Below are positions 8,871-26,145 of a stretch of DNA of 64,000 bases, piece after piece. Source of the DNA: Amycolatopsis sulphurea (GTDB taxonomy: Bacteria; Actinomycetota; Actinomycetes; Mycobacteriales; Pseudonocardiaceae). The stretch covers positions 5,332,001 to 5,396,000 of the forward strand of contig NZ_PDJK01000002.1 of NCBI RefSeq assembly GCF_002564045.1, written 5' to 3'. Each line of letters begins with the position of its first letter. The stretch's first letter is position 1. Under the pieces are notes generated by a model that saw only the letters and a program-made list of their open reading frames with translations, had not been told where the DNA came from and searched no databases. A program made the position numbers and the translations under genes.

Positions 8871-9677
8871 TCACACTCCGGAGAGGGTCTTGCCCGTGAT
8901 CCGCCGCATCAGCGCCAGCGTCGTCCGAGCGGGCAAGCGCTGGGTCAGGCCGGTGAACAGCGAGTAGCGGCGGCCGTCGACCACCGAGAACTTGCGCGAG
9001 CCCAGCGCACGGAAAGCAGTGGTGACGACGTGCTCCGGCTGCCGCAGGCCGCAGAATTTCGCCATTACGCCCAGGATCTCTTCGGACCGCTGCCCGGTGA
9101 CGGTCACGCCCGGGTGCACCGCCAGCACCCGGACACCCGAGCCGGCGACCTCCTCGCCGACTGCCTGGGTGAAGGACTGCACCATCGCCTTGCTCGCGGC
9201 ATAGGCGGCCAGGTACGGCGTGGGCTGGAACGCGGAAGCGCTCACGACGTTCACGATCGCTCCGCGACCACGGGAGACCATGCCCGGAAGGAAGCGAATC
9301 ATGCTGTCCACCACGGCATGCGAGTTCAGCTGCACCATCGCCGCGACGCCCGCCGGATCGGCTTTCGCCGCCGGCCCGCCCACCCCGCCGCCCGCGTTGT
9401 TCACGAGGAAGCCGATCTCGATCCCGTGCTCGACGGTCTGCTCGAACAGGTCCCGCGGCGCGTCGGTCTCGGACAGGTCCAGCTTCTCCGTCCACACCCG
9501 GACTCCGTAGGCCGAGCGCAGGAACGACGCGAGAGTCTCCAGTTTGTCGCCTGAGCGCGCCACGATCACGAGGTCCGCACCGCGCTGGGCGAGCCTGCGG
9601 GCGAACTCGGCGCCGATCCCGCCCGATGCCCCGGTAACCAGGGCCGTAGTGCCGGGCAGGCGTGCCAGGTCGTACAT
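8871..9677 (-). CDS. SDR-family short-chain dehydrogenase/reductase
   Basis: A classical SDR of 268 residues: cofactor loop TGASGGIGAEFARR near residue 16, NNAGGG near residue 96, catalytic serine in VVSASAFQ and YAASK as the catalytic tyrosine/lysine. The C-terminal third has no recognised specificity motif. ATG 9677 has an AGGAG 4 nt upstream. It is divergent from a TetR gene (93-bp gap), so TetR control of this reductase is the simplest reading; the substrate is unknown. Confidence 0.85.
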   Translation of the reverse strand: MYDLARLPGTTALVTGASGGIGAEFARRLAQRGADLVIVARSGDKLETLASFLRSAYGVRVWTEKLDLSETDAPRDLFEQTVEHGIEIGFLVNNAGGGVGGPAAKADPAGVAAMVQLNSHAVVDSMIRFLPGMVSRGRGAIVNVVSASAFQPTPYLAAYAASKAMVQSFTQAVGEEVAGSGVRVLAVHPGVTVTGQRSEEILGVMAKFCGLRQPEHVVTTAFRALGSRKFSVVDGRRYSLFTGLTQRLPARTTLALMRRITGKTLSGV

Positions 9678-9770
9678 GATTCTCCTTGTGCTCAAAGGAA
9701 AAGATCTTGATGCACGCATGCTAACGTCGTAACTGGAAGCACTCGACCACTTGGCCCGAAGTGAGAAACA
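9678..9770. promoter_or_regulatory. divergent promoter region SDR/TetR
   Basis: These 93 bp separate two divergent genes and are AT-richer than the surroundings. They must hold both promoters and probably the TetR operator, but I see no clean dyad that I would name as the site. Confidence 0.4.
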
Positions 9771-10472
9771 TTGCTTGATCAGGATTCTCATAACACTGCC
9801 GATCCCACCCCCGAAGAGCCGCCCGGCCCGCCCGGCGCGGAACTGCGCGCCGACGCCCGCCACAACCGCGAACGCGTCTTGAAGGCCGCGCGCGAGGTGT
9901 TCGCGGCCCACGGCGTCGACGCCCCGATGAGCGCGGTCGCCCGCCGGGCCGGCGTCGGCGTGGCCACCCTCTACCGCCGCTTCCCGAACCGCTCCGCGCT
10001 CGTCGTCGCCGCCTTCGACGATCAGGTCGTCACGTGTACAACCGCCCTGGAGGAGGCATTGGCCGACCCCGATCCGGGGCACGGCCTGTTCGTCTTCCTG
10101 AAGACGGTCTGCACCACGCTGGTCACCGACCGCGGCTTCGACATGGTGTCCATGACCGGCTTCCCCGAGGCGGTGGACTCCGGCGGGCAGCGCACCCGCG
10201 CGGAGGAGGTCGTGTCCACCTTGATCCGGCGCGCCCGTGACGCCGGGCAACTCCGCGCGGACTTCGACCCCGCGGATATCCCCCTTCTCCTGCTGGCCGT
10301 CAGCGGCTTGGCCCACCATCCGCCCGAGATCGCCCTGCCCGCCGCGCTCCGCCTCCTCACCTACCTCTTCCAGTCCTTCCTGGCCCACCCGCCGTCCCGC
10401 CCCGGCACGCTTCCTCCCGCACCACCGATGGATCTGACCGGACTGCGCCGCCCCCGCACCACGGACCGGTGA
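9771..10472 (+). CDS. TetR-family transcriptional regulator
   Basis: The 233-residue product has a proline-rich N-terminal tail, then a TetR helix-turn-helix at about residues 32-78 (RERVLKAAREVFAAHGVDAPMSAVARRAGVGVATLYRRFPNRSA in consecutive parts). The C-terminal ligand domain resembles the SbtR-like C-terminal group of actinomycete TetR proteins. TTG 9771 is the only start upstream of the HTH in this frame that clears the promoter gap, so the start is uncertain. Its target is probably the divergent SDR gene. Confidence 0.82.
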   Translation: MLDQDSHNTADPTPEEPPGPPGAELRADARHNRERVLKAAREVFAAHGVDAPMSAVARRAGVGVATLYRRFPNRSALVVAAFDDQVVTCTTALEEALADPDPGHGLFVFLKTVCTTLVTDRGFDMVSMTGFPEAVDSGGQRTRAEEVVSTLIRRARDAGQLRADFDPADIPLLLLAVSGLAHHPPEIALPAALRLLTYLFQSFLAHPPSRPGTLPPAPPMDLTGLRRPRTTDR

Positions 10473-10847
10473 CCTCGGTATTCAGAAGCTGTCCGAGGTT
10501 TTTGCCCGATTATCCTTGCTCCCCGCGTGCGCTCATTTGCCCCGTCCGTGGGACGCGGCCCCGCACTGCGAATGCGGACCGTCCGCGCTCGTGATAGTCG
10601 TGTTCCCGGCGGAGTAACCGGGAACGCATCGTGGCGGTCCGGCTCCGCCGGTTTTCGCGCGCCCAGGGTGCGCCGAATTCACCGGAATTGATGAAGTGTG
10701 ACCGGCCATATTTCACCCGCTGGACGGATATTCACTTCACGAACCCGGGAAAAGTTGATCCGCGCCATTCGCTGGGCTAACTTGCGGAGCCGGTTTTAGC
10801 CCGATCGGGGACATCCCCGGTGTACTCGAGACGGAAACGGAGGACCG
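10473..10847. promoter_or_regulatory. 375-bp gene-free region upstream of the polyketide cluster
   Basis: No credible gene is seen on either strand. TGAAGTG (10692-10698) and CACTTCA (10733-10739) form an inverted repeat around an AT-richer stretch about 110 bp before the polyketide start, a candidate operator or promoter zone. A GGAGGA Shine-Dalgarno lies just before GTG 10848. Confidence 0.4.
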
Positions 10848-13800
10848 GTGGGGACTTCATCGGGGACGGCGCGGGAGGAGCGCGTGCTGGTGCTCGGGCT
10901 CAGCCCGGCCGGGGCGCCGGACGCGCGGCTGGTCGCGGCGGTGGCCCGCGGCGGCGGGCTCGGCGTGCTCGACCTCGGCAGCGGCGACGCGCAGGCCCGG
11001 CGGGCGCTCGAACTGGCCGCGGCGTGGGCCCCGGGTGGCTTCGGGGTCCGGGTCGGCCCCGGCTGCCGGCTCGGCCCGGCCGATCTGCCCGCGGCGGTGG
11101 ACACCGTGGTGCTCGCCCGCGGCGCGACGTGGTCCGGGCTCACCGCGTACCGCGTGCTCGCCGAAGTGACCAGTCTCGACGAAGCCCGGGCGGCGGCCGG
11201 ATACGACGGTGTGCTCGCCCGCGGGCACGAGTCCGAGCTGAGCTCTTTTGTGTTGCTGCAACAGCTTGTGGCGCAGTCCGGCACCCCCGTCTGGCTGGCC
11301 GGTGGGCTCGGCCCGCGCACCGCCGCGGCGGCGGTCGTGGCCGGGGCGAGCGGGGTGGTGCTCGATCGCGAGCTGACCCTGCTGTCCGAAGTGGACATTC
11401 CGGGAACGTCGGACGAACTGCTGGCGCCGTTGTTCGCGGAGCGGTTCGGGGACGTCGATCGCGCGGTCCGTGCGGTGCGCGAAGCGATCCTCGCGGTCCC
11501 CGCGGCGGCGCCCGCGCCGCTGGGCGCGGAGTCCCCGCTGGCCAGGGCGACCGGGGTGGCGCTGCCGGTCGCGCAGGGGCCGATGACGCGGGTGAGCGAC
11601 CGGCCCGGGTTCGCCGCGGCCGTCGCGGAGGAGGGCGCGCTGCCGTTCGTGGCGCTCGCGCTGGCGGACGCCGAGCAGACCAGGGCGTTGCTGGAGGACA
11701 CCCGGCGCGCGATCCCGGATCGCCCGTGGGGCGCGGGCATTCTCGGCTTCGCCCCGGAAGAGGTGCGCGCCGCGCAGCTCGCGGTGATCCACGAGGTCAA
11801 GCCGGCGTGCGTGATCGTGGCGGGTGGCCGTCCCGCGCAGGCGGCGGCGCTGGAGGCGGAGGGCATCCAGGCGTTCCTGCATGTCCCTTCTCCCGTGCTG
11901 CTGCGGCAGTTCCTCGAAGCCGGGGCGCGCAAGTTCGTGTTCGAGGGCGCCGAATGCGGCGGGCACGTCGGCCCGGCCGAGAGTTTCCCGTTGTGGGAAG
12001 CGCAGATCGACGTGCTCCTCGCTCATCTGAAGGACCACCCGGGCGACCAGGTGCACGTCTACTTCGCCGGTGGAGTGCACGACGCGCGTTCCGCGGCGGC
12101 GGTCGCGGTGGCCGCGGCGCCGCTGGCCGAACGCGGCGCCGGGGTCGGCGTGCTGATGGGCAGCGCGTACCTGTTCACCCGCGAAGCGGTCGAACAGGGC
12201 GCAGTGCTCCCGGCTTTCCAGCGTCAGGTGGTCGAAGCCGAGCGGACGGAGCTGCTGGAGACCGCGCCCGGCCACGCCACCCGGTGTGTGGCCAGCCCGT
12301 TCGTCACCGAATTTCGCGAGCTGCGTGCGACGCTGCGCGCCGGTGGCCTGCCCGAGCGCGAGGTGTGGGAAGAACTCGAACAGGCCAACGTCGGTCGCCT
12401 GCGGATCGCGAGCAAGGGTGTGCGCCGCGAAGGTGCGCGGCTGGTCGACGTGGACGAAGCCGCGCAGGTCGAAGCCGGTCTCTACATGGCCGGACAGGTG
12501 GCTGTGCTGCGTTCGTCGGTCGGCACGGTCGGCGCGTTGCACTGGTCGGTGACGGACGGGGCGAAGGACTTCCACGAGTCGCGTGCCGCCCAGTTGCGGT
12601 GCCGGTTCGGCCTGCCCGCACCGGCGAGCGCCGAGGCGCCGCCGCCGCTGGACGTGGCGATCGTCGGGATGTCCGCGATGTTCCCGCAGGCACCGGACCT
12701 GGCCGCGTTCTGGGCCGGGATTCTCGCCGGGACGGACGCGGTGACCGAGGTGCCCGCGCACCGCTGGGCACCGGAGATCTACCACGGCGAGGGGCCGGGC
12801 CGGACGCCGTCGAAGTGGGGCGGGTTCCTGCCGGAGATCCCGTTCGACCCGCTGGCGTACGGGATTCCGCCGTCGTCGCTGGCCGCGATCGAGCCGGTGC
12901 AGCTGCTCGCGCTCGCCGCGGCCGACCAGGCGTTGCAAGACGCGTCGCTGGGCGCGTTCGACCGCGCTCGCACCAGCGTCGTGTTCGGTGCGGAAGCGGG
13001 TAGCGACCTGTCCAACGCGACCGTGCTGCGCACCGTGCTGCCCAGTTATCTGGGGCAGCTGCCGGAGGAACTCGGCGAGCAGCTGCCGCGGATCACCGAG
13101 GATTCGTTCCCGGGCATGCTGGCCAACGTGATCGCCGGGCGGATCGCCAACCGGCTGGATCTCGGCGGCGCGAATTACACCGTGGACGCGGCCTGCGCCT
13201 CGTCGCTGGCCGCGGTCGACGTGGCGTGCAAGGAACTCGTCAACGGCACCAGCGACGTGGTCCTCTGCGGCGGCGCGGACCTGCACAACGGGATCAACGA
13301 CTACCTGATGTTCTCGTCCGTGCAGGCGCTTTCCCCGACCGGCCGCTGCCGCACGTTCGACAGCTCGGCGGACGGGATCGCGCTCGGCGAGGGCGTGGCG
13401 TGCGTCGTGCTGAAGCGGCTGGCCGACGCCGAACGCGACGGCGACCGGGTCTACGCGGTGATCAAGGGCCTGGGCAGCGCCAGCGATGGCCGTTCGCTCG
13501 GCTTGACCGCGCCGCGGCCGGAAGGCCAGCGCTCGGCGCTGGAACGGGCCTACCGCAATGCGCGTCTTTCCCCGGCCTCGGTCGGGCTGATCGAGGCGCA
13601 TGGTACCGGCACCGTGGTCGGCGACCGCACCGAGTTGACCACGCTCAGCGCGGTGTTCACCGAGGCGGGCGCCGAGCCCGGCGGCTGCGCGATCGGTTCG
13701 GTCAAATCGCAGATCGGGCACACCAAGTGCGCGGCCGGGCTCGCCGGGCTGATCAAGAGCGCGCTGGCCCTGCACACCGGGACCCTGCCACCGACCCTGC

Positions 13801-16800
13801 ACGTGCGCTCGCCGAACCCGGGCTGGGGCGAGGACAGCCCGTTCGCCTTCCGGGACCAGGCGCGCCCGTGGGCGGCCGCGCCCGCCGACCGGGTGGCCGG
13901 GGTGAGCGCGTTCGGCTTCGGCGGGACGAATTTCCACGTCGTACTCACCGCGGGCGCTCGCGGTCCGGTGCCCCGGCACGCGGCCGATGAATGGCCCGCC
14001 GAGCTGTTCCTGTTCCCGGACTTACGGATGGACTGGTTGCAGGAGCTGATCCGGTCGGGTCCGGTGCGGCTGCGGGACCTCGCCGCGACCGCGGCCCGGC
14101 GCGCGGCCCGGCGGGGCGGGCCAGTGCAGGCGGCACTGGTTGCGTCCACTGTGGACGAACTGGGCGAGCTGCTGCCGCGGCTGGCGGCCGGCGAACACGA
14201 CCCACCGGCCGGGCTGTTCCAGGCCGACGCCGTGGTGCCGGGCAAGCTGGCGCTGCTGTTCCCGGGCCAGGGCAGTCAGCGGCCGGGCATGCTCGCCGAG
14301 CTGTACGTCACCTTCCCGGAGGTGCAGCACTATCTGCGGCTGCCGGGGGCGCCCGCGGCGGAGCTGTTCCCGCCCGCCGCGTTCGGCGCGGAGGCCGAGC
14401 AGGAGCGGCGGCTGCGGGACACGAGGGTGGCGCAGCCCGCGCTCGGGGTGACCGGGCTGGCCGTGCACCATCTGCTGACCCGGCTCGGTGTCCGGCCGGA
14501 TTTGCTGGGCGGGCACAGCTACGGCGAGCTGGTGGCGTTGTATGCGGCGGGTTCCTTCGACGCGGCCACGCTGCTGAGCCTTTCCCGCGCGCGTGCGGAA
14601 GCGATTCTCGACGTGGCGGGTGCCTATCCGGGCACGATGGCCGCGGTCGCCGCCTCCGCGGACGAGGTACGCGCCGCGCTCGGCGACCTCGATGTGGTGA
14701 TCGCGAACCACAACGCACCACGGCAGGTGGTGATCTCCGGCCCGGAACCCGCGGTGGACGAGGCGTGTGCGATCCTGCGGGGAGCCGGGATGAGCGCGCA
14801 GCGGATCCCAGTCGCGTGCGCGTTCCACAGCCCGGTGCTGCACGGCGCCGGGCGGCGGTTCGCCTCGGCGCTGGCCGGGGCCGAGGTGCGCGCGCCGGAG
14901 CTGCCGGTCTTCGCGAACCGGACCGCCGGGGAGTATTCCGGTGCGGTACGGGCGGAACTGGCCGCCCAGCTCGAGGCGCCGGTCGCGTTCGTCGCGCAGA
15001 TCGAGGCGATGTACGAGGCCGGGGCGAGGGTGTTCGGTGAGGCCGGTCCGGGGCGAGTACTGTCCCGTCTGGTCGGTGCGATCCTCGGTGACCGTCCACA
15101 CACGACGGTCGCCTGCGACGGCGGGCTTCGCGGCTTCCTCGGCGCGGTGGCGATGCTGGCCGTGTCCGGCATCCCGCTCGACGCGGGCTGGCTCTTCCGG
15201 GGCCGGGACGTGCGGGACGCGGCGAAGGAGCCGCCGAAGCGTCCGAAGTGGACCGTGGACGGGCAGGCCGTGCGCACCGCGGACGGGACACCGCCGGCGG
15301 GCGGGCTGGTCCCGGCGCGGCGGATCGAAGCGTTGACCAGGGGTGAAAGGCAGACGGCGCCGATGAGTGAACGGGAAGACCTGATCCGCGAGTTCCTGCG
15401 GACGAGCCGGGAGCAGGTCGCCGCGCAACGGGACGTGCTGCTGACCTACCTCGGCGCACCGGCTGCGCTGCCTGCGCCCGTCGTGGTGGAGCAGCCGCCG
15501 GAGCAGGCGGCCCCCGCCGTGAAACCGGAGCCGGAACCGGTGACGGACGTGCTGGACGTGCTGGACGTGGTGGTCTCGGTGGTCGCCGACCGGACCGGGT
15601 ATCCGGCGGACATGGTGGAGCCGGAGCTGGATCTGGAAGCGGACCTGAGCGTGGATTCCATCAAGCGCACGGAGATCGCCGGGGAACTGGTGCGGCGGCT
15701 GGCGGTCCCCGCGGGTGCGGACGTGGAGGAGCTGTCGGCGCTGCGCTCGGTGGGGGCGATGGCGGAGTGGTTCGGTGGCGCGCAGCAGCCGCCCGCCGCA
15801 GTCGCCGACGTGGCACCGCCGGTGCCGGTGCCGGCCGTGGATACGCCGCGCGGGACCGCGCCACGACGGTACGTGCTGGAGCCGGTTCCGTTGTCCGGCG
15901 CCGGAATCGTGGTGGGAGAGCACGAGCTGGACGGGATGACCGTCGCCTTGGCCGGTGGCGATGCGGAGCTGCACGCTTCGCTCGGCGCAGCGCTCGCCCG
16001 GCACGGCGCGGAGGTCGCGGCCGGCGGCGCCGACACCATCGTCCACCTCGAACCGCTCGCCGACACCGACGCGACGTTGCCGGACCTGATCCCGAGCCTG
16101 CGCGAAGATCTGGCGCGGGCGCCCCAGCGGCTGTTCGTTCTCGCGCGGCCGGACACGACGGCGTTCGCCGGGCTGCGCGGGCTGTTCCGGTCGCTCGCGC
16201 GGGAGTATCCGGACACCGACCTGCGGGCCGTCGAGCTGGACGGGCCGGTCGAACTGCTGGTCCGGGAGCTGGCCGTGAGCGGGGCGCCGGTGGTGCAGGT
16301 CTCGGCCGGTGCGCGAGCCGAACCGCGGCTCGTGCCCGCGCCGTTCGGGGCGCTCGCGGCGACCGGCGCGGGGCCGGCCGGTGACGGCGCGGCCGAAGCG
16401 GCCGCACTCGGGCTCGGCCCCGATGCGGTGGTGCTGCTCGTCGGTGGCGGGCGGGGGATCACGGCGCACGCGGCGCAGGCGTTCGCCGCCGGTGGCTGCG
16501 CGATCGAGCTGGTCGGGCGGACGCCGTTGCCGTCCGGTCCGGAGGACCCGGCCGTGCAGGCCGCGGCCGATCTGCCCGCGCTCCGGCGTGTGCTGGCCGG
16601 CAAGGGGGTGGGCGGCCCGGCCGAGGTGGCCCGCGCGGCGCGTCTGGTGCTGGCGCAACGCGAGGTCACCGCGACACTGGATACGTTGCGGGGCAAGGCA
16701 TCCAGCGTGCGTTATCACGCCGTCGACGTGCGCGACAGCGAGGCGCTGCACCAGGTGGTGAAGGAGATCCACGCCGAGCACGGCCGGCTGGACGGCGTCG

Positions 16801-17258
16801 TCTACGCCGCGGGCGTGATCGAGGACCGGCTGTTCGCGGAGAAGGCCCCCGAATCGTTCCGCCGCGTCTACAGCACCAAAGTGGACGGTGCGCGGGCGCT
16901 GCTGGCCGCGCTGGACACCGTGCCGCAGCCGCCCGGGTTCGTCGTCCTGTTCGGCAGCATCGCCGGGGCGCTGGGCAACCGCGGGCAGACCGACTACGCC
17001 GCGGCCAACGACGCGCTGGAGACCCTCGGCGCCGCCTGGGCGCAGCGGAGCGGGCAGCGCGCGCTGACCGTCCACTGGGGACCGTGGGCGCCGGACGCCA
17101 CGCACGGCGGCATGGTCTCGCACGAACTGGCGCGCAGCTACGCCGGGCGCGGGATCGAGCTGATCGACCCGGAGGAGGGCACCGCCGCGCTGCTGCGGGA
17201 GCTGGCCTGGGGCGACCCGGCGCTGACCGCCGTCGTGCACACCGCCTCCGGCTGGTGA
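10848..17258 (+). CDS. iterative type I polyketide/PUFA-like synthase, ER-KS-AT-ACP-KR
   Basis: A 2136-residue multidomain synthase. Residues about 1-590 are a PfaD/nitronate-monooxygenase-like TIM barrel (VAQGPMTRVSD, FEGAECGGHVGP), an FMN enoyl reductase in PUFA synthases, here fused at the N-terminus. The KS (about 597-1045) has Cys783 in DAACASS, His918 in EAHGTGT and His958 in IGHTKCA. The AT has Ser1224 in GHSYG. A single ACP carries Ser1604 in DLSVDSIKR, the PUFA/HglE-type phosphopantetheine site. The C-terminal KR has GGGRGIT near 1866 and Tyr2050 in TDYAAAN. One set of domains and a matching second protein point to iterative use building a long, partly reduced chain, as in heterocyst glycolipid or PUFA synthases. 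GTG 10848 has a GGAGGA upstream. The next gene begins 3 bp after the stop. The product is unknown. Confidence 0.88.
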   Translation: MGTSSGTAREERVLVLGLSPAGAPDARLVAAVARGGGLGVLDLGSGDAQARRALELAAAWAPGGFGVRVGPGCRLGPADLPAAVDTVVLARGATWSGLTAYRVLAEVTSLDEARAAAGYDGVLARGHESELSSFVLLQQLVAQSGTPVWLAGGLGPRTAAAAVVAGASGVVLDRELTLLSEVDIPGTSDELLAPLFAERFGDVDRAVRAVREAILAVPAAAPAPLGAESPLARATGVALPVAQGPMTRVSDRPGFAAAVAEEGALPFVALALADAEQTRALLEDTRRAIPDRPWGAGILGFAPEEVRAAQLAVIHEVKPACVIVAGGRPAQAAALEAEGIQAFLHVPSPVLLRQFLEAGARKFVFEGAECGGHVGPAESFPLWEAQIDVLLAHLKDHPGDQVHVYFAGGVHDARSAAAVAVAAAPLAERGAGVGVLMGSAYLFTREAVEQGAVLPAFQRQVVEAERTELLETAPGHATRCVASPFVTEFRELRATLRAGGLPEREVWEELEQANVGRLRIASKGVRREGARLVDVDEAAQVEAGLYMAGQVAVLRSSVGTVGALHWSVTDGAKDFHESRAAQLRCRFGLPAPASAEAPPPLDVAIVGMSAMFPQAPDLAAFWAGILAGTDAVTEVPAHRWAPEIYHGEGPGRTPSKWGGFLPEIPFDPLAYGIPPSSLAAIEPVQLLALAAADQALQDASLGAFDRARTSVVFGAEAGSDLSNATVLRTVLPSYLGQLPEELGEQLPRITEDSFPGMLANVIAGRIANRLDLGGANYTVDAACASSLAAVDVACKELVNGTSDVVLCGGADLHNGINDYLMFSSVQALSPTGRCRTFDSSADGIALGEGVACVVLKRLADAERDGDRVYAVIKGLGSASDGRSLGLTAPRPEGQRSALERAYRNARLSPASVGLIEAHGTGTVVGDRTELTTLSAVFTEAGAEPGGCAIGSVKSQIGHTKCAAGLAGLIKSALALHTGTLPPTLHVRSPNPGWGEDSPFAFRDQARPWAAAPADRVAGVSAFGFGGTNFHVVLTAGARGPVPRHAADEWPAELFLFPDLRMDWLQELIRSGPVRLRDLAATAARRAARRGGPVQAALVASTVDELGELLPRLAAGEHDPPAGLFQADAVVPGKLALLFPGQGSQRPGMLAELYVTFPEVQHYLRLPGAPAAELFPPAAFGAEAEQERRLRDTRVAQPALGVTGLAVHHLLTRLGVRPDLLGGHSYGELVALYAAGSFDAATLLSLSRARAEAILDVAGAYPGTMAAVAASADEVRAALGDLDVVIANHNAPRQVVISGPEPAVDEACAILRGAGMSAQRIPVACAFHSPVLHGAGRRFASALAGAEVRAPELPVFANRTAGEYSGAVRAELAAQLEAPVAFVAQIEAMYEAGARVFGEAGPGRVLSRLVGAILGDRPHTTVACDGGLRGFLGAVAMLAVSGIPLDAGWLFRGRDVRDAAKEPPKRPKWTVDGQAVRTADGTPPAGGLVPARRIEALTRGERQTAPMSEREDLIREFLRTSREQVAAQRDVLLTYLGAPAALPAPVVVEQPPEQAAPAVKPEPEPVTDVLDVLDVVVSVVADRTGYPADMVEPELDLEADLSVDSIKRTEIAGELVRRLAVPAGADVEELSALRSVGAMAEWFGGAQQPPAAVADVAPPVPVPAVDTPRGTAPRRYVLEPVPLSGAGIVVGEHELDGMTVALAGGDAELHASLGAALARHGAEVAAGGADTIVHLEPLADTDATLPDLIPSLREDLARAPQRLFVLARPDTTAFAGLRGLFRSLAREYPDTDLRAVELDGPVELLVRELAVSGAPVVQVSAGARAEPRLVPAPFGALAATGAGPAGDGAAEAAALGLGPDAVVLLVGGGRGITAHAAQAFAAGGCAIELVGRTPLPSGPEDPAVQAAADLPALRRVLAGKGVGGPAEVARAARLVLAQREVTATLDTLRGKASSVRYHAVDVRDSEALHQVVKEIHAEHGRLDGVVYAAGVIEDRLFAEKAPESFRRVYSTKVDGARALLAALDTVPQPPGFVVLFGSIAGALGNRGQTDYAAANDALETLGAAWAQRSGQRALTVHWGPWAPDATHGGMVSHELARSYAGRGIELIDPEEGTAALLRELAWGDPALTAVVHTASGW

Positions 17259-17261
17259 GGC

Positions 17262-20200
17262 GTGACTGAGCGGACGCCGGTCGCGATCGTCGGCATGGCG
17301 GTGCTCCTGCCCGGGGCGCCGGACCTGGCCCGGTACTGGCACAACCTGGTCACCGGGGTGGACGCGGTGACCGACGTGCCCGCCGGGCGCGGGCTGCCCG
17401 GCGGCCGGGGCGGGTTCGTGGCGGCGAGCGCCGAACCCGCGCTGTCCGGGACCGAGCCCGAGCAGCTGATCGCCGTGCAGGTGGCGGCCGCCGCGGTGGA
17501 CGACGCGGGCGGCGAGGGAAGGCTCGGTGACCGGTCGCGGACCGGGGTCGTCCTCGGCCGCGGCGGCCATCTCACGCCCGGGATCGCGCGGCTCGACCAG
17601 CGCGTGCGGACCGCGCGGCAGCTCGTGCACACCCTCGCCGAGCTGGTTCCCGGCCTTTCCGCCGGCCAACTGTCCGAAGTGCACACTGCGTTCACCAGCG
17701 CACTCGGCGAGGACCGGCCGGAAGAGACCCTTGGCCTGGTGGCCACTCGCGTGGCCCACCGGCTCGGCCTCGGTGGCCCGGCCTACACCGTGGACGCGGC
17801 CTGTGCCTCGTCCCTCGTCGCGGTCGACCAGGCGGTGACCGAGCTGAGCATCGGCCGGTGCGACACGATGCTCGCCGGCGGCGTGCACCATTGCCACGAC
17901 GTCACGTTCTGGAGCGTGGTCGAACGGCCGCGCGCGCTTTCGCCGAGCAAGCGCATCCGGCCGTTCGATCGCGGTGCCGATGGCATCGTGCTCGGCGAGG
18001 GCGCCGGCGTCGTGGTGCTCAAACGCCTCGCCGACGCGCAGCGCGACGGTGACCGGATTTACGCCGTGGTGCGGGGTTCCGGCGTCGCCGGGGACGGCCA
18101 CGGCGCGGGTCCGGCCGGGCAGGTCCGCGCGGTCGAGATGGCCTGGCGCGCAGCCGGTCTCGACCCGGCCGCCCCCGGCTCGATCGGACTGCTGGAGGCG
18201 CACGGCAGCGGCACACCGGCCGGGGACGAGGCGGAACTCGCCACGCTGCGCCAGGTTTTCGGTGAGGGCGAGCCCGCCGCGCTGGGCTCCGTCACATCGA
18301 TGATCGGGCACACCATGTCGGCCGCCGGGGTCGCGGCGCTGGTGAAGGCGGCGCTCGCGGTCCACCACGGCGTGCTGCCGCCGACCCTGCACTGCGACGA
18401 TCCGCACCCGGCGCTGTCGGGCACCCGGTTCGCGCCGGTTCGCGAGGCCCGCGAGTGGACCGGACCGCGCCGTGCCGGGGTGAATGCGTTCGGGTTCGGC
18501 GGGATCAACGCTCACGTCGTGCTGGAGCAGGCGCCCGGTGCCGCCCCGGTTCCGGCGCCCGTGGTGACCGAACCGGACCGCGTGCTGCGGTTCGCCGCGG
18601 ACACCACTGCAGACCTCGCCCGCCTGCTCGATGCTGCCGATGGCGACCTGCGGGCCGCGGCGCCGGGCACCGGCCGGATCCGGCTCGCGCTCGTCGCGCC
18701 GACGGCGAAACGTCTTGCGCTGGCCCGGAAAGCGGTCGCCAAGGGTCGGCCGTGGCGCGGCCGGCAGGACCTCTGGTTCAGCCCCGCGCCGCTGCTTGCC
18801 GATCCGCGGGCGAAGGTGGCGTTCGTCTTCCCCGGCCTGGAGGCCGAGTTCGCCCCGAGTCTCGACGACGTCGCAGTCCACTTCGGACTGCCGAAGCCGG
18901 TGGTGTGCACCGACGGGGTCGGCCGGCACGGGCTCGCCGTGCTGCAGGTGGATCGGTTGCTGGACACCGCGTTGCGGGGCCTCGGCGTGGTGCCGGACGC
19001 GGTCGCCGGGCACAGCGTCGGCGAATGGGCCGCGATGGTCTCGGCCGGGGTGCACTCTGCGTCCGAAGTGGACACTCTGCTCGCCCGGTCCGATCCGGAG
19101 TCGCTGCAGGTGCCCGGGGTGGAGTTCGCGGTGCTCGGCTGCCCGGCGGACCGGGTGCGGGCCGCGCTGCCGCCGGAACTGGTGGTCTCGCACGAGAACT
19201 CGCCGTTGCAGACGATCGTGTGCGGCCCGGCGGAACCAATCGCGCAGCTGCTCGGCGAGTTCCGCGCGCAGGGCGTGCTGTGCCAGGTGCTGCCGTTCCG
19301 GTCCGGCTTCCACACCCCGATGCTGGCGCCCTATCTCGCGCCGTTCCGCGTTTTCGCGGAGACGCTGGCCGTGCACGAGCCGTCCGTGCCACTGTGGTCG
19401 GCGACGCTCGCCGCGCCGTTCCCGCGGGACGAGGCGGCGGTGCGCGAGGTGTACTTGCGGCATCTGCTGGAGCCCGTGCGGTTCACCGAGCTGATCCGCG
19501 CGCTCTACGCCGACGGCGCACGGGTGTTCGTGCAGGCCGGGCACGGCCAGCTCGGCTCCCTTGTGGACAGTATCCTCGATCGGGACGAGCACCTCGCGAT
19601 CGCCGCCAGCTCGGCACACCGGAGCGGGCTGGACCAGCTGCGCCGGGTCGCCGCCGCGGTCTGGGCCGAAGGCGGGGAGCCGGACTTCGGCGTCCTCACC
19701 CGGCGGCCCGGCACGGTGCCGATCGACCTGTCCGCGGGCCTGGTCAGCCTTTGCCCCGAGGCGGCGGGACTCCTGCCCGCCAGTGCGCCCCGGCACCCGC
19801 TGGCCGCGGAGTTCGACGATCTGCTGCGCGAAACCGCCGAGTCGGCCTCCGCCGTACTGGCCGCGAGCCGGCCACCGGAGCGGATGCGATTCTCCCTGGA
19901 GACCATGCCGTATCTGCTGGACCACACGTTCGCGCCGCAGCGGGAGGGCTGGCCGGACGACACCGACCGGCGGCCGGTCGTCCCGGCGACCACGATCGTG
20001 CGGCACCTCGCCGACGCCGCGGAGAAGGCCGCGCCCGGGGCACGAGCGATCGCGGTCCGCGACGTCCGGCTGCACCACTGGCTCGTCGCGGCCCCGGCCG
20101 TGGAGGTCGCCCTGACCGTCCGCCCGGCCGGTCCGGGGCAGCTCGATCTCGAACTCGGCGACTACGCGCGGGCCAGGGTCGAGCTGGCCGCGGACTACCC

Positions 20201-21122
20201 CGAACCGCCGGCACTCTGGCCGATGCCGGCCGGCCGGGCACCACGGCTGAGCGCGCAACGGTTCTACGGCGAGCGCTGGATGTTCCACGGCCCGCGTTTC
20301 CAGGGCCTGACGGAGACGATTTCGGTCGGTGCCCGGCATGTGGCGGCCACGATCACCGTGCCGCCCGCGCCCGGTGCGCTGCTGGACAACATCGGCCAGC
20401 TGTTCGGCCTGTGGGCGGTGGAGACCCAGGAGCACTACCGGGTGGCGTTCCCGGTGGAGATCCGGGAATTCCGGTTCCACAGCGAGGAACCGGTCCCGGG
20501 TACCCGGCTGCACTGCCTGGCGCGGGTGACCGAGGTGACCGGCACCGGGATGGAGTTCGAGGCGCAGCTGGTCCGCGACGGCCGGGTGCACGCCGAGGTG
20601 CGTGGCTGGCGTGACCGCCAGTTCGACTGCCATCCGGACATCGAGCCCGCCTACCTCGTCCCGGAACGGAACCTGATCGCGCAACGGCAGCCCGGCGGCT
20701 GGTACGCGGCGTTCGAGCGCTGGCCCGGGCTCGCCTCCCGCGAGCTGTACCTGGGCAAGTACCTCAGCGCGGCGGAACGCGCGCAGTACGAACGGGTCCC
20801 GGTGCGGGACCGTCGGCACTGGGTGCTCGGCCGCATCGCGATCAAGGACGCCGTGCGCGGCCTGTTGTGGGAGCGTGGGGCCGGTCCGATCTACCCGGCC
20901 GAGATCCTCGTCCGCGAGGACGGCACGGTGACCGGCTGCCACGGCTTCGCGCTGCCGGAGCTGAAGGTCGCCTTCGCCTGCCACGGCGAGCTGGGTGCCG
21001 CGATCGCCGGTACCGATCCGTGGATCCGCGTCTCCGGGGACGGCCCGGCGACGCTCGTCAATCCGCCCGGGCTGCCGCCGCGGCAGTACCGGGTGAGCTG
21101 GAAGGAGAACAGTGAGCAGTGA
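17262..21122 (+). CDS. polyketide synthase subunit, KS-AT-DH with C-terminal PPTase-like domain
   Basis: A 1286-residue protein translated next to the first synthase. The KS has Cys181 (DAACASS), His314 (EAHGSGT) and His350 (IGHTMS), so it is catalytically intact. The AT-like region has Ser585 in GHSVGEW but is short and lacks the usual GQGSQ opening, reading FVFPGLEAEF. Residues about 880-1130 form a hot-dog dehydratase with His888 in LLDHTF and a second lobe with FYGERWMFHGPRFQ. The C-terminus (about 1150-1270; WVLGRIAIKDAVRGLLW) resembles a fused 4'-phosphopantetheinyl transferase, which could activate the ACPs of the cluster; its metal-binding acidic residues are not obvious, so activity is uncertain. 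It overlaps the ACP gene by 11 bp. Confidence 0.85.
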   Translation: MTERTPVAIVGMAVLLPGAPDLARYWHNLVTGVDAVTDVPAGRGLPGGRGGFVAASAEPALSGTEPEQLIAVQVAAAAVDDAGGEGRLGDRSRTGVVLGRGGHLTPGIARLDQRVRTARQLVHTLAELVPGLSAGQLSEVHTAFTSALGEDRPEETLGLVATRVAHRLGLGGPAYTVDAACASSLVAVDQAVTELSIGRCDTMLAGGVHHCHDVTFWSVVERPRALSPSKRIRPFDRGADGIVLGEGAGVVVLKRLADAQRDGDRIYAVVRGSGVAGDGHGAGPAGQVRAVEMAWRAAGLDPAAPGSIGLLEAHGSGTPAGDEAELATLRQVFGEGEPAALGSVTSMIGHTMSAAGVAALVKAALAVHHGVLPPTLHCDDPHPALSGTRFAPVREAREWTGPRRAGVNAFGFGGINAHVVLEQAPGAAPVPAPVVTEPDRVLRFAADTTADLARLLDAADGDLRAAAPGTGRIRLALVAPTAKRLALARKAVAKGRPWRGRQDLWFSPAPLLADPRAKVAFVFPGLEAEFAPSLDDVAVHFGLPKPVVCTDGVGRHGLAVLQVDRLLDTALRGLGVVPDAVAGHSVGEWAAMVSAGVHSASEVDTLLARSDPESLQVPGVEFAVLGCPADRVRAALPPELVVSHENSPLQTIVCGPAEPIAQLLGEFRAQGVLCQVLPFRSGFHTPMLAPYLAPFRVFAETLAVHEPSVPLWSATLAAPFPRDEAAVREVYLRHLLEPVRFTELIRALYADGARVFVQAGHGQLGSLVDSILDRDEHLAIAASSAHRSGLDQLRRVAAAVWAEGGEPDFGVLTRRPGTVPIDLSAGLVSLCPEAAGLLPASAPRHPLAAEFDDLLRETAESASAVLAASRPPERMRFSLETMPYLLDHTFAPQREGWPDDTDRRPVVPATTIVRHLADAAEKAAPGARAIAVRDVRLHHWLVAAPAVEVALTVRPAGPGQLDLELGDYARARVELAADYPEPPALWPMPAGRAPRLSAQRFYGERWMFHGPRFQGLTETISVGARHVAATITVPPAPGALLDNIGQLFGLWAVETQEHYRVAFPVEIREFRFHSEEPVPGTRLHCLARVTEVTGTGMEFEAQLVRDGRVHAEVRGWRDRQFDCHPDIEPAYLVPERNLIAQRQPGGWYAAFERWPGLASRELYLGKYLSAAERAQYERVPVRDRRHWVLGRIAIKDAVRGLLWERGAGPIYPAEILVREDGTVTGCHGFALPELKVAFACHGELGAAIAGTDPWIRVSGDGPATLVNPPGLPPRQYRVSWKENSEQ

Positions 21123-21399
21123 ACCGGCCGTGGACACCCCGGCCTTCGAGACCGTCTGCGCGATCCTGCGCGACATCCTCGGCGAATACGAGGCCGAAGA
21201 CGTCGAGATCGTTCTGGACTCGTCGTTCCACGAGGATCTGCAGCTGGAGAGCATTGATCTGGTGGCGCTCGCCGGGCGGCTGCGCGAGCATTACGGGGAG
21301 CGGATCAACCTCGCCGAATGGCTGGCGGACAAGGACTTGGACGAGGTGATCGAGCTGACCGTCGGGCAGCTGGCCGGGTACGTCGAGAGCCGCCGGTGA
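21112..21399 (+). CDS. acyl carrier protein
   Basis: A free-standing 95-residue acidic protein with the four-helix ACP pattern and the attachment serine in LQLESIDLVALAGRL (about residue 46). ESIDL differs from the DSL of fatty-acid ACPs and DSIKR of the first synthase, suggesting a distinct partner, perhaps the second KS or product release. GTG 21112 lies inside the previous gene and its stop overlaps the next start, so translation is coupled. Confidence 0.85.
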   Translation: MSSEPAVDTPAFETVCAILRDILGEYEAEDVEIVLDSSFHEDLQLESIDLVALAGRLREHYGERINLAEWLADKDLDEVIELTVGQLAGYVESRR

Positions 21400-22199
21400 G
21401 CATGCTCGTCGCCAACGGCATCCGCATGCACTACGAGCGGATGCCGGCCGGGGATTCCGCGCGCCGCCCGCCGCCGCCGGTGGTGTTCGTGCACGGCCTC
21501 GGTACCGACAGCCTGGCCAGCTTCTACCTGACGCTGGCCGCCCCCGTCGCCGCTTCGGGCGTCGAAGTCCTCGCCTACGACCTGCGCGGGCACGGCCGCA
21601 CCGAGCAACCCGCCAGCGGGTACCGGGTCGGCGATTTCGTGGCCGATCTATGCGGCCTACTCGACGAGCTGGACCTGCGCCGCCCCGTGCACCTGGTGGG
21701 CAACAGCTTCGGCGGCACGATCGCGCTCAGCTTCGCCGCGCAGCATCCGGATCGGGTGGCCACGGTGGTGTCGATCGAATCCGAACCGGCCACCGCGGTG
21801 TGGGCCGGCAAGATGGGGCGCACCCTGGCCAACATCATGAAGGAACTCAGCCGTGAGGAGTTCTTCGACTGGCTGAGCGCGACCTTCGGCAAGCACCACG
21901 CCCGGCTCGCGCGCGCGACCGGGAAGCGCCTGCGTGCGACGACGATGGCGGAGGAGATTCCGCTGGGTCCGCTGCTGGATGCGGATGGGCTGGCCGAAAT
22001 TCGGTGTCCGGTGTTGTCCATTGTGGGCAGTGAGGGATTCCAGCGGGACGATCCGTATGCGGTGGGTGGGATGCTGCCGGACTGTCGCACTGAAGTGCTT
22101 CCGGGGCAGGGCCATTCGGTTCTGGTCGAGGCGCATCGGACGGTGCGGGGGCTGTTGCTGGACTGGGTGGCGGGGCATGAGCTGGTGGACGCGTGCTGA
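21396..22199 (+). CDS. alpha/beta hydrolase, probable chain-release or editing enzyme
   Basis: An alpha/beta-hydrolase of 267 residues: FVHGLGTDS oxyanion region, YDLRGHGRTEQPASGY, nucleophile elbow GNSFGG (Ser about 104), and C-terminal GQGHSV holding the catalytic histidine. No signal peptide is seen, so it acts in the cytosol. Placed between the ACP and a glycosyltransferase, it could hydrolyse or transfer the finished chain (inference). GTG 21396 overlaps the ACP stop; ATG 21402 two codons later is an alternative. The 3' end is duplicated immediately downstream. Confidence 0.83.
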   Translation: MSMLVANGIRMHYERMPAGDSARRPPPPVVFVHGLGTDSLASFYLTLAAPVAASGVEVLAYDLRGHGRTEQPASGYRVGDFVADLCGLLDELDLRRPVHLVGNSFGGTIALSFAAQHPDRVATVVSIESEPATAVWAGKMGRTLANIMKELSREEFFDWLSATFGKHHARLARATGKRLRATTMAEEIPLGPLLDADGLAEIRCPVLSIVGSEGFQRDDPYAVGGMLPDCRTEVLPGQGHSVLVEAHRTVRGLLLDWVAGHELVDAC

Positions 22200-22450
22200 G
22201 CGCGGCCGTCGGTAAGCGCCACGTCCGCGCGGCGGAGGAATCCCGGCCGGCGGAGATTCGGTGTCCGGTGTTGTCCATTGTGGGCAACGAAGGATTCCGG
22301 CAGGATGATCCGCACGCGGTCGGTGCGTCGCCGAGCTGCCGCACCGAAATTCCTCCAGGGCAAGGTCATTCGGTACTGGCCGAGGCACATCGGACAGTGC
22401 GCGGGTTGCTGCTGGACTGGGTCGACGGGCACGAACTGGTGGACGCGTGA
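22193..22450 (+). pseudogene. duplicated C-terminal fragment of the preceding hydrolase
   Basis: An 85-residue frame whose segment from about 22250 repeats the last 66 residues of the hydrolase: IRCPVLSIVGNEGF against IRCPVLSIVGSEGF, then GQGHSVLAEAHRTVRGLLLDW and HELVDA in both. Offset is about 251-257 bp. The copy has the histidine of the triad but no nucleophile, so it cannot be an independent hydrolase. It keeps an open frame and overlaps the following glycosyltransferase by GTGA, so it may still be translated to couple expression. Confidence 0.8.
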
Positions 22451-23568
22451 GGTTCCTGTTCGTGGTTCCGCCGTTTCCGGGGCACGTGAACCCGCTGGTC
22501 GCGGTCGCCGCCGAACTGCGCACGCGGGGACACGTGGTGGCGTGGACCGGCGCGCCCGAATCGCTCGCGGGGGAACCGGTGCTGCCCTGCGGGACGATCC
22601 CGTTTCCGCCGCGCCCGGACGGGTTGCAGGGCTTCGCCGCGTTGAAAGTCCTGTGGGAGAAGGTTCTTGTGCCGCTCGCCGAGGCGATGGCGCCGGGCGT
22701 CGAAGCGGCGATCGAGCAGTTCCGTCCGGACGTCGTAGTGGCCGATCAGCAGGCCTTCGCCGGAGCGTTGGTGGCGCAACGGCTGGGCGTGCCGTGGGCG
22801 ACGTCCGCGAGTACGTCGTCGGAGCTGGCCGATCCGCTGTCCGCGTTGCCGAAGGTCGCGCAGTGGCGGGCGGATCTGCTCGCCGCGCTCGCGCAGCGGC
22901 TGGGCGCACCGGTGGTGGATCCGCGGTTCTCGCCGCGGCTGGTGCTGGCGTTCACCACCGCGGCGCTGGCGGGGGAGTGCCCGGCCGGGGTGACGTTCGC
23001 CGGTCCAGCGCTCGGTGCCCGTCCCGAGGTCGATTTCCCTTGGCAGGACCTGGATCCCGCGCGTGCGCTGGTGCTGGTCACGTTGGGCACGGTCAACACC
23101 GGCGCGGTCTTCCTCGCCGAATGCGCCGCCGCCCTGCGAGAACGATCCGACCGGGTGCAGGCGGTCATCGCCGACCCCTCCGGCACGCTGGACGCGCCGG
23201 GGGCGCTGGTCCGGCGATCGATCCCGCAGCTGGACGTCCTGGCCCGCGCTGCCGCGGTGATCTGCCACGGCGGCCACAACACCGTGTGCGAAGCACTCGG
23301 ACACGGCCTGCCGCTCGTGGTCGCGCCGATCCGGGACGACCAGCCGATGATCGCAGACCAGGTCGTCACGGCCGGTGCGGGCGTCCGGCTGCGCTTCGGC
23401 CGGGCGAAGGCCGCGCAGCTGGGCAAGGCGGTGGATCAGGTGCTTGACGATCCGCGATACCGGGCGGCGGCCGGGCGCGTGGCGGAGTCCTTCCGCGCGG
23501 CCGGTGGCGCGCCGGCCGCGGCGGATGCGCTGGAGGAGGCGTGCACGCCGTTGGCCGTAAGCTCCTGA
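22447..23568 (+). CDS. GT1-family (UGT/MGT-like) glycosyltransferase
   Basis: The 373-residue GT-B protein opens with FLFVVPPFPGHVNPLVAVAAELRTRGH, the acceptor-domain signature of macrolide and carotenoid glycosyltransferases, and has the donor-site block around PQLDVLARAAAVICHGGHNTVCEALGHGLPLVVAP followed by DQPMIADQV. GTG 22447 overlaps the upstream fragment. Being the last gene of the polyketide operon, it probably attaches a sugar to the lipid product, giving a glycolipid; sugar and acceptor are unknown. Confidence 0.87.
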   Translation: MRFLFVVPPFPGHVNPLVAVAAELRTRGHVVAWTGAPESLAGEPVLPCGTIPFPPRPDGLQGFAALKVLWEKVLVPLAEAMAPGVEAAIEQFRPDVVVADQQAFAGALVAQRLGVPWATSASTSSELADPLSALPKVAQWRADLLAALAQRLGAPVVDPRFSPRLVLAFTTAALAGECPAGVTFAGPALGARPEVDFPWQDLDPARALVLVTLGTVNTGAVFLAECAAALRERSDRVQAVIADPSGTLDAPGALVRRSIPQLDVLARAAAVICHGGHNTVCEALGHGLPLVVAPIRDDQPMIADQVVTAGAGVRLRFGRAKAAQLGKAVDQVLDDPRYRAAAGRVAESFRAAGGAPAAADALEEACTPLAVSS

Positions 23569-23602
23569 CCGGTTGGACGCTGAGTCTGCCGGGGCCTGCA
23601 TG

Positions 23603-23735
23603 TCCGTGAAGGTGCCCTTCACGGACCTCCGTGGTTGTGCAGGGTCCTTCACGCCGACTTTGCCGACGCCCTGGATCCAGCGTCCGTGAAGGGCCCCTTG
23701 ACGGACTCAGAGTCCGTGAAGGGCCCTTCACAGCC
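23603..23735. repeat. composite palindromic repeat, copy 1
   Basis: Three hairpins of the GTGAAGG/CCTTCAC family are linked by a constant segment that includes CTCCGTGGTTGTGCAGGG and TTTGCCGACG. Copy 2 lies about 335 bp to the right with the same order. It follows the glycosyltransferase stop, so the hairpins may end transcription of the polyketide operon. Confidence 0.8.
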
Positions 23736-23938
23736 CCAGCCGCAGGTCCCGGCGAAGTTCGTCGAGGGCCTGTGATCAGCAGAGAGCGGTGGCTGCCGCG
23801 TCATTATCGGTGGTGCCTGCCCTCTTCATCGGTTTCGTCCGGTAGTGGCGATGCGGTTGTGTTCGGGGTGCGCGGCCACCTCGTGGTACGTGCCGGACCT
23901 GTTTCGGGTCCGTGAAGGACCCCTTCACAGACTCAGAG

Positions 23939-24072
23939 TCCGTGAAGGGGCCCTTCACGGACCTCCGTGGTTGTGCAGGGCCCCTTCACACCGACTTTGC
24001 CGACGCCTGGATCCAGCGTCCGTGAAGGTGCCCTTCACGGACTCACAGTCCCTGAAGGGCACCTTCACAGCC
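23939..24072. repeat. composite palindromic repeat, copy 2
   Basis: About 134 bp, near-identical to copy 1, preceded at 23909-23932 by another small hairpin of the same family. The space between the copies (23736-23908) holds no gene I recognise. Confidence 0.8.
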
Positions 24073-24132
24073 CCAGCCCCAGCCCCAGCCCCAGCCCCAG
24101 CCCCAGGGGCAGGGGCAGGGGCAGGGGCAGGG
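24069..24132. repeat. hexanucleotide tandem repeats (CCCCAG)n then (GGGGCA)n
   Basis: About six or seven CCCCAG units switch abruptly to about five GGGGCA units. The right half can form a G-quadruplex on the plus strand, the left half on the minus strand. It lies about 85 bp before the CopD-like start. Confidence 0.85.
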
Positions 24133-24216
24133 TGCGGACCGGCCATTGTGGACGAGTGTCGGGGATCACGCCGGGCCGCCGGGAACCGGTGCGGGGGAGG
24201 ATCCGACCGGTGGGGG

Positions 24217-26126
24217 GTGAGCAAAAGGAGGTTCCGCGGCGCACTGGTGGCCGCGGTGGTGGCGGGGCTGGCCCTGCTGCTGATCGTGGTTGCCACCGCA
24301 GGCGACGTCTACGCACCGCTGGGCACCGCCGATCCCGGGCCGTGGGTGACCTTCGGGTTCGCGATCGTCCGGTTCGCGGCGGTGGCGGCGGGCGCGGGCT
24401 GCGCCGGCGGGCTGGCCTTCGCCGCGTTCGTCGCGCCAGGGCGGCGTGACGGAAGCTGACCGCGGAGTCGTTCGCCGCGGTCCGGTTCGCCGCGGGGAGT
24501 GCCGCGTGCTGGCTCGCCGCGGCGATCGCGGCGGTACCGCTGTCCGCCGCGGCGGCGTCCGGTCTGCCACTGGGCACTTTGCTCGGCAACGGTGCCCTGC
24601 TGTCCACGATCGGCGCGACCGAAGAACCCAAGGCATGGCTCTGCGTGGTGGTCGTGGCGGCCGTTGTCACCGCCCTGACCTGGCCGGCGATGGCCTGGCG
24701 CACGACGGTGCTCGCGCTGGCCGTCTCCTTCGCCGGTTTGCTGGCCCCGGTGGTGATCGGGCACGCGTCGGTCGGGGCCGGACACGACTTCGCCACCGGC
24801 GCGCTGGTCTGGCACGTGCCCGCGGCCTCGGTCTGGCTGGGCGCGCTCTTCGCGCTCCTCGCCCATCTCCGCCGCCGCGCTCCCGACAAGCTGGTCCTGC
24901 GCCGTTACCACCGGCTGTCCCGGCTCTGTTTCGTGGTCGTACTGGTGTCCGGGGCGGTGGGCGGTCTGGTCACGGCCCGGCCGGACGGCCTGATGAGCCG
25001 GTACGGGCTGCTGCTCGCGGTGGAGGTGGTCCTGCTCGCGGCGGCCGGTGCGATGCTGGCGGCCGCACGCGGTGTCGCACCCCGGCGGGTCGCCGTGGTC
25101 GAGCTGCTGTTGCTGATGCTCGCCGCCGGCGGTTCGGTGGGGCTCACGGTCCTCGTCCCGCCGTCATTCGTGAACGATCCGGCGACCGTGCAGGAGACGA
25201 TCCTCGGCTACGAGCTGCCCGACCCGTCGTCGTGGCTGCGATTCCTCACCGACTGGCGCCCGGACTTGATCATTGGGTCGATCGCAGTGCTCGCGTGCGT
25301 GCTGTACGTGCTCGGTGTGCGGAGGCTGCGCCGGCGCGGCGACGCATGGTCCACCGGCCGGACCGCCGCGTGGCTGCTGGGCTGGCTGATCGTGGTGATC
25401 GCGACCTCGTCCGGGCTGGGCACGTACTCGCCCGGCACCTTCAGCCTGCACATGGTCACCCACATGGGGCTCAACATGTACGGCCCGGTCCTGCTCGTCC
25501 TCGGCGGCCCGGTCACGCTCGCGCTGCGGGCGCTGCCCGCGCGGTCCGGGGTGCCGGGCGCGCGGGAATGGCTGGTGGACCTGCTGCATGCCCCGGTCAC
25601 GCGGTTCCTCGCCCATCCGGCGGTGGCCGCGATCCTGTTCGCCGGATCGTTCTACGCGCTGTACTTCTCGGGCCTATTCGGGCAGGCGATGCTCTTCCAC
25701 TGGTCGCACGAGCTGATGCGGCTGCACTTCCTGATCACCGGGTACCTCTTCGCCTGGGTGGTGGTCGGCACCGACCGCACGCCCCGCCGGATCCCGCACC
25801 TGGCCCGCCTCGGCGTGCTGTTCGCGGTGATGCCGTTCCACGCGTTCTTCGGCGTGATCGTGATGAGCAAGCAGACCGTGATCGCCGCGACCTACTACCA
25901 CTACCTCGCCCCGCCCTGGGCCGGTGACCTGCTGGCCGACCAGCGCCTCGGCGGCGGGATCGCCTGGGCGAGCGGGGAGATCCCGCTGGTGGTCGTCGTC
26001 GTGGCGCTGCTCGTGCAGTGGTCCCGCGACGACGAACGGCGCGCCAAGCGCACCGACCGCACCGGCGAAGCCGATTTCGACGCCTACAACGCCATGCTCG
26101 CCCAGCTCGCCGAGCGTGGGCGATGA
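24217..26126 (+). pseudogene. CopD/CtaG-like bifunctional copper protein, frameshifted
   Basis: Homologues fuse a CopD copper-resistance domain to a caa3-type cytochrome oxidase assembly (CtaG) domain in one polytopic membrane protein of about 650 residues. Here the N-terminal frame (GTG 24217, SKRRFRGALVAAVVAG...) stops at 24459, and the remainder continues in another frame from about 24450 (RKLTAESFAAVRFAAG...) to 26126. Adding one base near 24450 gives a full protein. Many hydrophobic helices are evident, with the CtaG part containing THMGLNMYGPVLLVLGGP and HWSHELMRLHF, whose histidines and methionines suit copper. The downstream piece alone could start at 24579. It precedes copA by 19 bp, so both serve copper homeostasis. 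Mutation and sequencing error cannot be told apart. Confidence 0.78.
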
Positions 26127-26145
26127 CCGGAACACGGAGCCGTAC

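Follow-up and report, generated by a model that had tools for sequence, protein, structure and literature searches.

A conserved five-gene operon for a putative glycolipid synthase

Five genes arranged head to tail on the + strand (10848-23568) of the 64,000-nucleotide stretch of Amycolatopsis sulphurea DNA analysed here, hereafter the window, probably encode an iterative two-protein synthase of a glycosylated long-chain (hydroxy)acyl lipid. They comprise two large genes and genes for a dedicated free ACP, an alpha/beta hydrolase and a GT1 glycosyltransferase, and a PPTase would act in trans. This reading draws on synteny, since 62 loci among the best 80 of 99 relatives have all five genes in the same order and on the same strand; on protein 1, whose N-terminus was matched in 48 of 60 genomes of the genus; and on catalytic residues that are kept. 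It draws further on PfaA as the best model for protein 1, a PKS-type dehydratase (PS-DH) without a FabA-type one, a FabK/PfaD-like second enoyl reductase (ER) barrel with a conserved His, a YjiC-like glycosyltransferase near which relatives carry a methyltransferase, MlaE/YrbE permeases in one lineage, and a single genomic PF01648 match. The system is real, conserved, probably functional and of a known kind, its unusual features being a live/dead pair of ER barrels and a half-lost PPTase. Our literature searches found no known product for any member of the cassette, which counts against the synthase reading.

The initial annotation had placed the genes at 10848-17258, 17262-21122 and 21112-21399, with a hydrolase gene that runs to 22199 and a glycosyltransferase gene at 22447-23568, all on the + strand, and these positions were borne out. 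Pfam likewise supported its assignments of the free ACP, the hydrolase (alpha/beta type) and the GT1 glycosyltransferase. It had also called the cluster an orphan, a label that does not survive the synteny and genus counts given above.

For the distribution, a scan took in the contigs of 84,980 species, each represented by a single genome, and the best 80 of 99 relatives were kept, including Streptomyces, Kutzneria, Amycolatopsis, Frankia, Pseudofrankia, Actinoplanes and Lentzea. In 16 of the other 18 loci the available DNA extends less than 4 kb beyond protein 1; the two real exceptions among the best 80 of 99 are L027 and L087. The former, from Actinophytocola, has proteins 1 and 2 with no ACP, hydrolase or GT match within 12 kb, which counts against the glycolipid synthase; the latter is a different PKS, matching at 44% over KS-AT. 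The genus count was obtained with the first 601 residues of protein 1 (E<=1e-40, own genome included, up to three matches per genome), and the same residues matched in 8 of 296 genomes of the phylum (E<=1e-60, own included). The cassette is therefore shared but patchy in the phylum. On the KS-AT tree, protein 2 groups with Amycolatopsis, the nearest sequence being that of Amycolatopsis acididurans (70% over 824 tree columns). The source genome (6.86 Mb, two contigs) carries further PKS genes, and matches to protein 1 elsewhere in it, outside the two large genes, do not exceed 37% identity.

Domain architecture and catalytic residues

Protein 1 (10848..17258, 2136 aa) starts at a GTG preceded, four bases 5′, by GGAGG (10839-10843). 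Pfam identified an NMO-type ER, KS, AT, one ACP and KR, and the reading frame, Pfam matches, aligned rows and a predicted model together give the order decayed ER barrel - ER barrel - KS - AT - ACP - KR. In protein 2 (17262..21122, 1286 aa), Pfam identified KS, AT and a weak PKS DH, which with the reading frame and the aligned rows gives KS - AT - DH - half PPTase. Stop codons are absent from the interior of both large genes. The large alignments, made from the best 80 of 99 relatives, hold 78 rows for protein 1 and 67 rows for protein 2, the window included; 3 of the 80 protein-1 loci and 14 of the 80 protein-2 loci were left out for short or shared frames. The catalytic residues of KS1, AT1, ACP, KR, KS2, AT2 and DH are all present in the window and nearly invariant across these rows.

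The PfaA-like KS1 (12651..13952; PF00109/PF02801) has its Cys-His-His in all 78 rows. The best NCBIfam model for protein 1 as a whole is TIGR02813 (PfaA), at 801.5 bits and thus under its cut-off of 1010.1. AT1 (14244..15107; PF00698; Ser and His in 78/78) carries an AFHS motif, which we take to be of the malonyl type. The integrated ACP (15567..15770) with its DSIKR motif is single, PF00550 matching one stretch (5.4e-8 alone; Ser in 78/78). It is followed by a KR (16425..17117; PF08659) whose Tyr, Ser and Asp are present in 76 of 78 rows, the remaining two being gapped, and which is presumably B-type, judging from an LDD-like Asp motif. The earlier assignment of a DSIKR ACP and a KR to protein 1 was thus upheld by PF00550 and PF08659.

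On protein 2, KS2 (17274..18551; Pfam) has an intact Cys-His-His, with Cys in 66 of 67 rows and the two His in 67 and 66; a single row is without the Cys, and a single row, which may be that same one, is without the second His. At locus L123 of the same genus (8156-10534), protein 2 has no KS2, the match beginning at residue 440. Because of these single rows and L123, the role of KS2 is unsure. AT2 (18966..19571; PF00698) keeps its Ser and His in 67/67. The dehydratase (19884..20624) is of the PKS type (PF14765, 5.3e-12 with the DH region alone), with His888 (64/67; two gaps, one Arg) and Asp1042 (63/67; four gaps). No FabA-type DH was matched in either protein at E<=0.001, nor in the DH region at E<=0.5.

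The enoyl reductase consists of two tandem barrels

By sequence profile and predicted model, the ER is a tandem of two FabK-like TIM barrels, the first of which is decayed. The initial annotation had placed an ER at the N-terminus of the KS protein, where Pfam indeed found one of the NMO type, and had overlooked that there are two barrels. With bounds inferred from the model, barrel 1 spans 10884..11522 and barrel 2, with a lid, spans 11523..12617. Barrel 1 has eight strands in the predicted model, its profile (A2) matched FabK (7l00) at 1.8e-23 over profile positions 36-229, and hhalign related it to barrel 2 at 96.6% (E 4.9e-10). In the window its catalytic-His motif is deleted; in the relatives the motif is mostly GGR or GGP, and the catalytic-His column of the 78 rows holds R in 57, P in 11, a gap in 7, H in 2 and Q in 1. 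In barrel 2, by contrast, 77 of 78 sequences retain the catalytic His (2 of 78 in barrel 1), and in the window this is His373 within ECGGHVGP. Judged from these residues, barrel 2 is apparently active as an FMN-type enoyl reductase. Its fold is FabK/PfaD-like: in the structure comparison, whose rows (VIA-align) cover mostly residue 220 onward and hence barrel 2, PfaD shares the fold and FabK is nearer. Among ER models FabK alone matched, with a score below its cut-off.

Two TIM-barrel ERs that may pair have been described for the ERb/ERc heterodimer of thraustochytrid PUFA synthase, in the available part of PMC13311796. There the barrels lie on two proteins and both are FMN-bound in the crystal, whereas the operon has them in one chain, one barrel being without the catalytic His. 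The live/dead tandem allows one to ask, in a natural system, whether a TIM-barrel ER depends on a second active site or is satisfied by a second barrel.

The PPTase domain is reduced to its N-terminal lobe

Protein 2 had been read as KS-AT-DH-PPTase. The first three domains stood, the DH as a weak PKS match, whereas the PPTase is cut down to its N-terminal half and no PF01648 match was obtained for protein 2 of the window at E<=0.5. This remnant (20769..21122, + strand) consists of the N-terminal lobe (KDAVR ... FACH), without GIDxE or KEAxxK. In the Streptomyces homologues inspected, a complete Sfp-like domain closes protein 2, typically with GIDIE followed by AAKEAVAKAEGTG, and in one of them, L012, PF01648 matched at 4e-16. 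With the catalytic half gone from the window and PF01648 silent, an active integrated PPTase was rejected. We take the DH-PPTase end of protein 2 to resemble enediyne-type PKS.

Among 94 protein-2 sequences, including that of the window, the PPTase was full in 54, truncated in 25, decayed in 2 and not callable in 13; it is whole, accordingly, in 54 of the 81 callable sequences. The state was scored by the KEA motif and length rather than by GIDxE, so that some rows called full (L113, L043) carry an altered GID motif, and L110 was assigned as full by hand from its sequence. The KS-AT tree of 79 sequences (the 13 without a callable end and 2 not covering KS-AT having been left out of the 94) requires at least four changes of state, the direction of which the tree does not give; read by eye, it has seven separate lineages without the catalytic half, some weakly resolved. 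Both states occur within the genus of the window, and on this tree loss of the PPTase half is common to whole lineages. Of 67 rows, 62 keep the Lys, Asp and Arg of the lobe, and four of the others are gapped there. Since the catalytic half has been lost repeatedly while the N-terminal half stays, these data suggest a structural job for the retained lobe. A genome-wide search with PF01648 gave one match, in a 299-residue open frame elsewhere. According to the part of PMC3909215 available, one Sfp-type PPTase serves many clusters in S. ambofaciens.

Accessory genes and a proposed cycle

The gene for the free ACP (21112..21399, +; PF00550, 6.3e-9) encodes the motif DLxLESIDLV, and its LES Ser is present in at least 95% of 63 aligned rows. 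The alpha/beta hydrolase (21402..22199, +; GNSFGG; PF00561, 1.1e-25) has an inferred start at either 21396 or 21402. A small ORF that follows (22193..22450, +), which had no Pfam match at E<=0.001, repeats part of the 3′ end of the hydrolase gene in tandem (80.8% identity over 208 nt). The GT1 glycosyltransferase (22447..23568, +) is MGT/YjiC-like: TIGR01426 matched at 3.9e-46 with 157.8 bits, under its cut-off of 260, and the best PDB match is the UDP-glucosyltransferase YjiC (1.4e-29).

Of the 62 loci with a GT, 45 carry a methyltransferase no more than 1.2 kb from the end of the GT, and in 42 of these the distance is at most 1 kb. Such neighbours, for example the SAM methyltransferase at 23989-25104 of L071 (PF13489), belong mostly to Streptomyces-type cassettes; among same-genus regions with a GT, 1 of 19 has one. 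The window gave no methyltransferase match except two 17-residue chance ones. The UDP-glucosyltransferase-like GT, the hydrolase and the methyltransferase of the relatives suggest, at the level of sequence, a glycosylated long-chain hydroxy acid as product.

In the cycle that we propose, the order of the steps, the saturation of the chain, the sugar, the mode of release and the product are those that we infer. A PPTase encoded elsewhere in the genome would arm both the free ACP and the one within protein 1; AT1 would load malonyl, and KS1 would elongate while KS2 would help or prime. The KR would reduce, the DH of protein 2 would dehydrate, and barrel 2 would reduce the enoyl, with barrel 1 as a presumably dead partner on the same polypeptide. 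One hydroxyl or more would survive on the acyl chain, which would pass to the free ACP; GT1 would then add a hexose, probably glucose, and the hydrolase would release or esterify the chain. The hydrolase could instead be a type II editing thioesterase, which counts against this explanation.

Relationship to known lipid synthases

The fused layout of ER-KS and KS-AT-DH-PPTase is already in print as Type M-like (PMC3098273, PMC13291983). In the available excerpts, Shulse and Allen (2011, PMC3098273) report Type M secondary lipid synthases from Frankia, Actinosynnema mirum, Renibacterium and S. avermitilis, their product uncharacterised, and PMC13291983 reports that two other bacteria have pfaDA and pfaBC-PPTase fusions closely like those of Renibacterium, a Type M strain. 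The operon shares with Type M the ER (pfaD) fused to a pfaA-like KS-AT-ACP-KR and the fused pfaBC. It differs in that protein 2 of the window, fused as it is, has no catalytic PPTase half. Frankia and Pseudofrankia loci are also among the best 80 of 99 relatives, and we consider the operon Type M-like from the published descriptions together with the cassette shared by other Frankia and Pseudofrankia homologues. In those excerpts, the Type M descriptions make no mention of two barrels, of an ACP-hydrolase-GT tail or of a product. A conserved cassette with intact active sites, found at the frequencies given above among the best 80 of 99 relatives and in the genus, and described in these excerpts only as an uncharacterised type of lipid synthase, is a good target for finding a common but unseen actinomycete glycolipid.

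Like hgl (Type F), the operon has no pfaC-type DH/I (excerpt of PMC3098273), and a glycosylated long chain is expected for both, the comparison being by description only; unlike the heterocyst glycolipid synthase, it is actinobacterial and has a fused ER and its own GT1 and hydrolase. One alternative changes the role of the product and leaves the chemistry as proposed, so that the two readings are not exclusive: instead of being secreted as a metabolite, the product might serve as a structural glycolipid of the envelope or spore, much like the heterocyst glycolipids of cyanobacteria. We hold this possibility tentatively. The frequency of protein 1 in the genus, own genome included, speaks for it, as do the MlaE/YrbE permeases near the cassette in one lineage and the occurrence of Type M in all three Frankia genomes finished in 2011 (excerpt of PMC3098273), whereas the patchiness in the phylum (8/296), the secondary-metabolite MGT type of the GT and the up to three copies per genome argue against it. 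The permeases, which are linked to lipid transport, lie with an ABC transporter downstream of the cassette in L128 (14555-19752), where Pfam confirmed two of them, in L128 only; clustering placed them in six same-genus loci (L117, L123, L125-L127 and L128), a few kb beyond the cassette.

Pfa systems can use their ER selectively. A PUFA or conjugated-polyene synthase, in which the ER acts rarely and double bonds are kept in the chain, would be compatible with this, with PfaA as the best NCBIfam model for protein 1 and with the Pfa-like architecture. The operon differs from the PUFA synthases PfaA-E (Types A and B), however, in having one PF00550 stretch in protein 1 instead of tandem ACPs, a PS-DH in place of the FabA-type DH/isomerase that methylene-interrupted cis bonds require, a KS2 that keeps its Cys instead of a cysteine-less CLF, an ER that is both fused and doubled, and a GT; protein 1 also stays under the PfaA cut-off. 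With an ER that appears active in addition, a PUFA product was rejected, and this whole reading is unlikely. The domain order of the operon agrees with published Type M-like genes in its ER fusion and departs from the pfa clusters in its carrier and dehydratase. From the route to a glycosylated long-chain or polyene lipid that had been suggested initially, the glycosylated long-chain part is favoured by the GT and the hydrolase.

Comparably doubtful is that the acyl chain serves as a building block for another assembly line or carrier, the GT acting on a later product. Other bacteria have related pfa-like genes whose products enter PKS-NRPS lines (excerpt of PMC13291983), and the free ACP could act as a donor. 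Against this, the neighbours vary by lineage while the five genes stay together, and the window has no further PKS beside the operon, in a search that covered protein 1 matches, of which there was no second one, and not NRPS genes.

A more speculative thought, for which we see little likelihood, is that the cassette family might be the missing genes for antiviral macrocyclic glucolipids of the cycloviracin/fattiviracin/glucolypsin type, with an ER that would be a one-chain dimer in which the dead FabK-like barrel scaffolds the live one. The available part of PMC4365757 describes these dilactones from Streptomyces and Kibdelosporangium as carrying hydroxy fatty acids on glucose, with an ester to C6′ in glucolypsin and O-methylated sugars in cycloviracin. 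The parts list (synthase, glucosyltransferase, hydrolase and sugar O-methyltransferase) would fit, the likeness being one of parts list alone. If so, the synthase would make a long 3-hydroxyacyl chain that GT1 glucosylates on the free ACP, the hydrolase would couple two units via the glucose 6-OH, and the Streptomyces-type methyltransferase would methylate the sugar. None of the producers named in that part of PMC4365757 is among the best 80 of 99 loci, and our literature searches found no gene cluster for the cycloviracin family.

Decay of the cluster in the genome of the window, to which the lost PPTase half, the partly duplicated hydrolase gene and the absent methyltransferase might point, is very improbable, given that the core catalytic residues are present, that the large genes are free of stops, that PPTase loss is common to whole lineages and that 18 of 19 same-genus GT regions are also without a methyltransferase.

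Surroundings of the operon

Clusters of flanking genes were mostly reading-frame shadows, and only Pfam-checked genes were used. A TetR-type regulator lies upstream (9771..10472, +; PF00440, 1.6e-13); it was rejected as a member of the cassette, with matches in 3 of 80 loci. An SDR was likewise rejected (1 of 80 loci, both counts among the best 80 of 99); at 25-32% identity it occurs in 7 of 20 same-genus regions and was taken as generic. A pattern scan of 8800-24600 found 0 promoter-like sites, against 0.3 expected. Further upstream, 3446-8056 on the - strand holds iolD, iolB and iolC (inositol catabolism) beside a GntR-type regulator.

On the 3′ side, the cassette of the window is followed by a palindrome-rich gap and copper genes, encoding a CtaG/CopD-like membrane protein and a heavy-metal (copper-type) P-ATPase (24579-28389). 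The palindrome GTGAAGGNNCCCTTCAC is located at 23606-24068, 29301-29347, 35006-35052, 38685-38701, 40066-40082 and 47503-47549, often as pairs 30 nt apart. With up to 3 mismatches allowed, the window has 15 such places, which together give 29 strand matches against 0.15 expected. Genome-wide, this large REP-like family has 1184 exact forward sites, compared with 0 for the reversed control.
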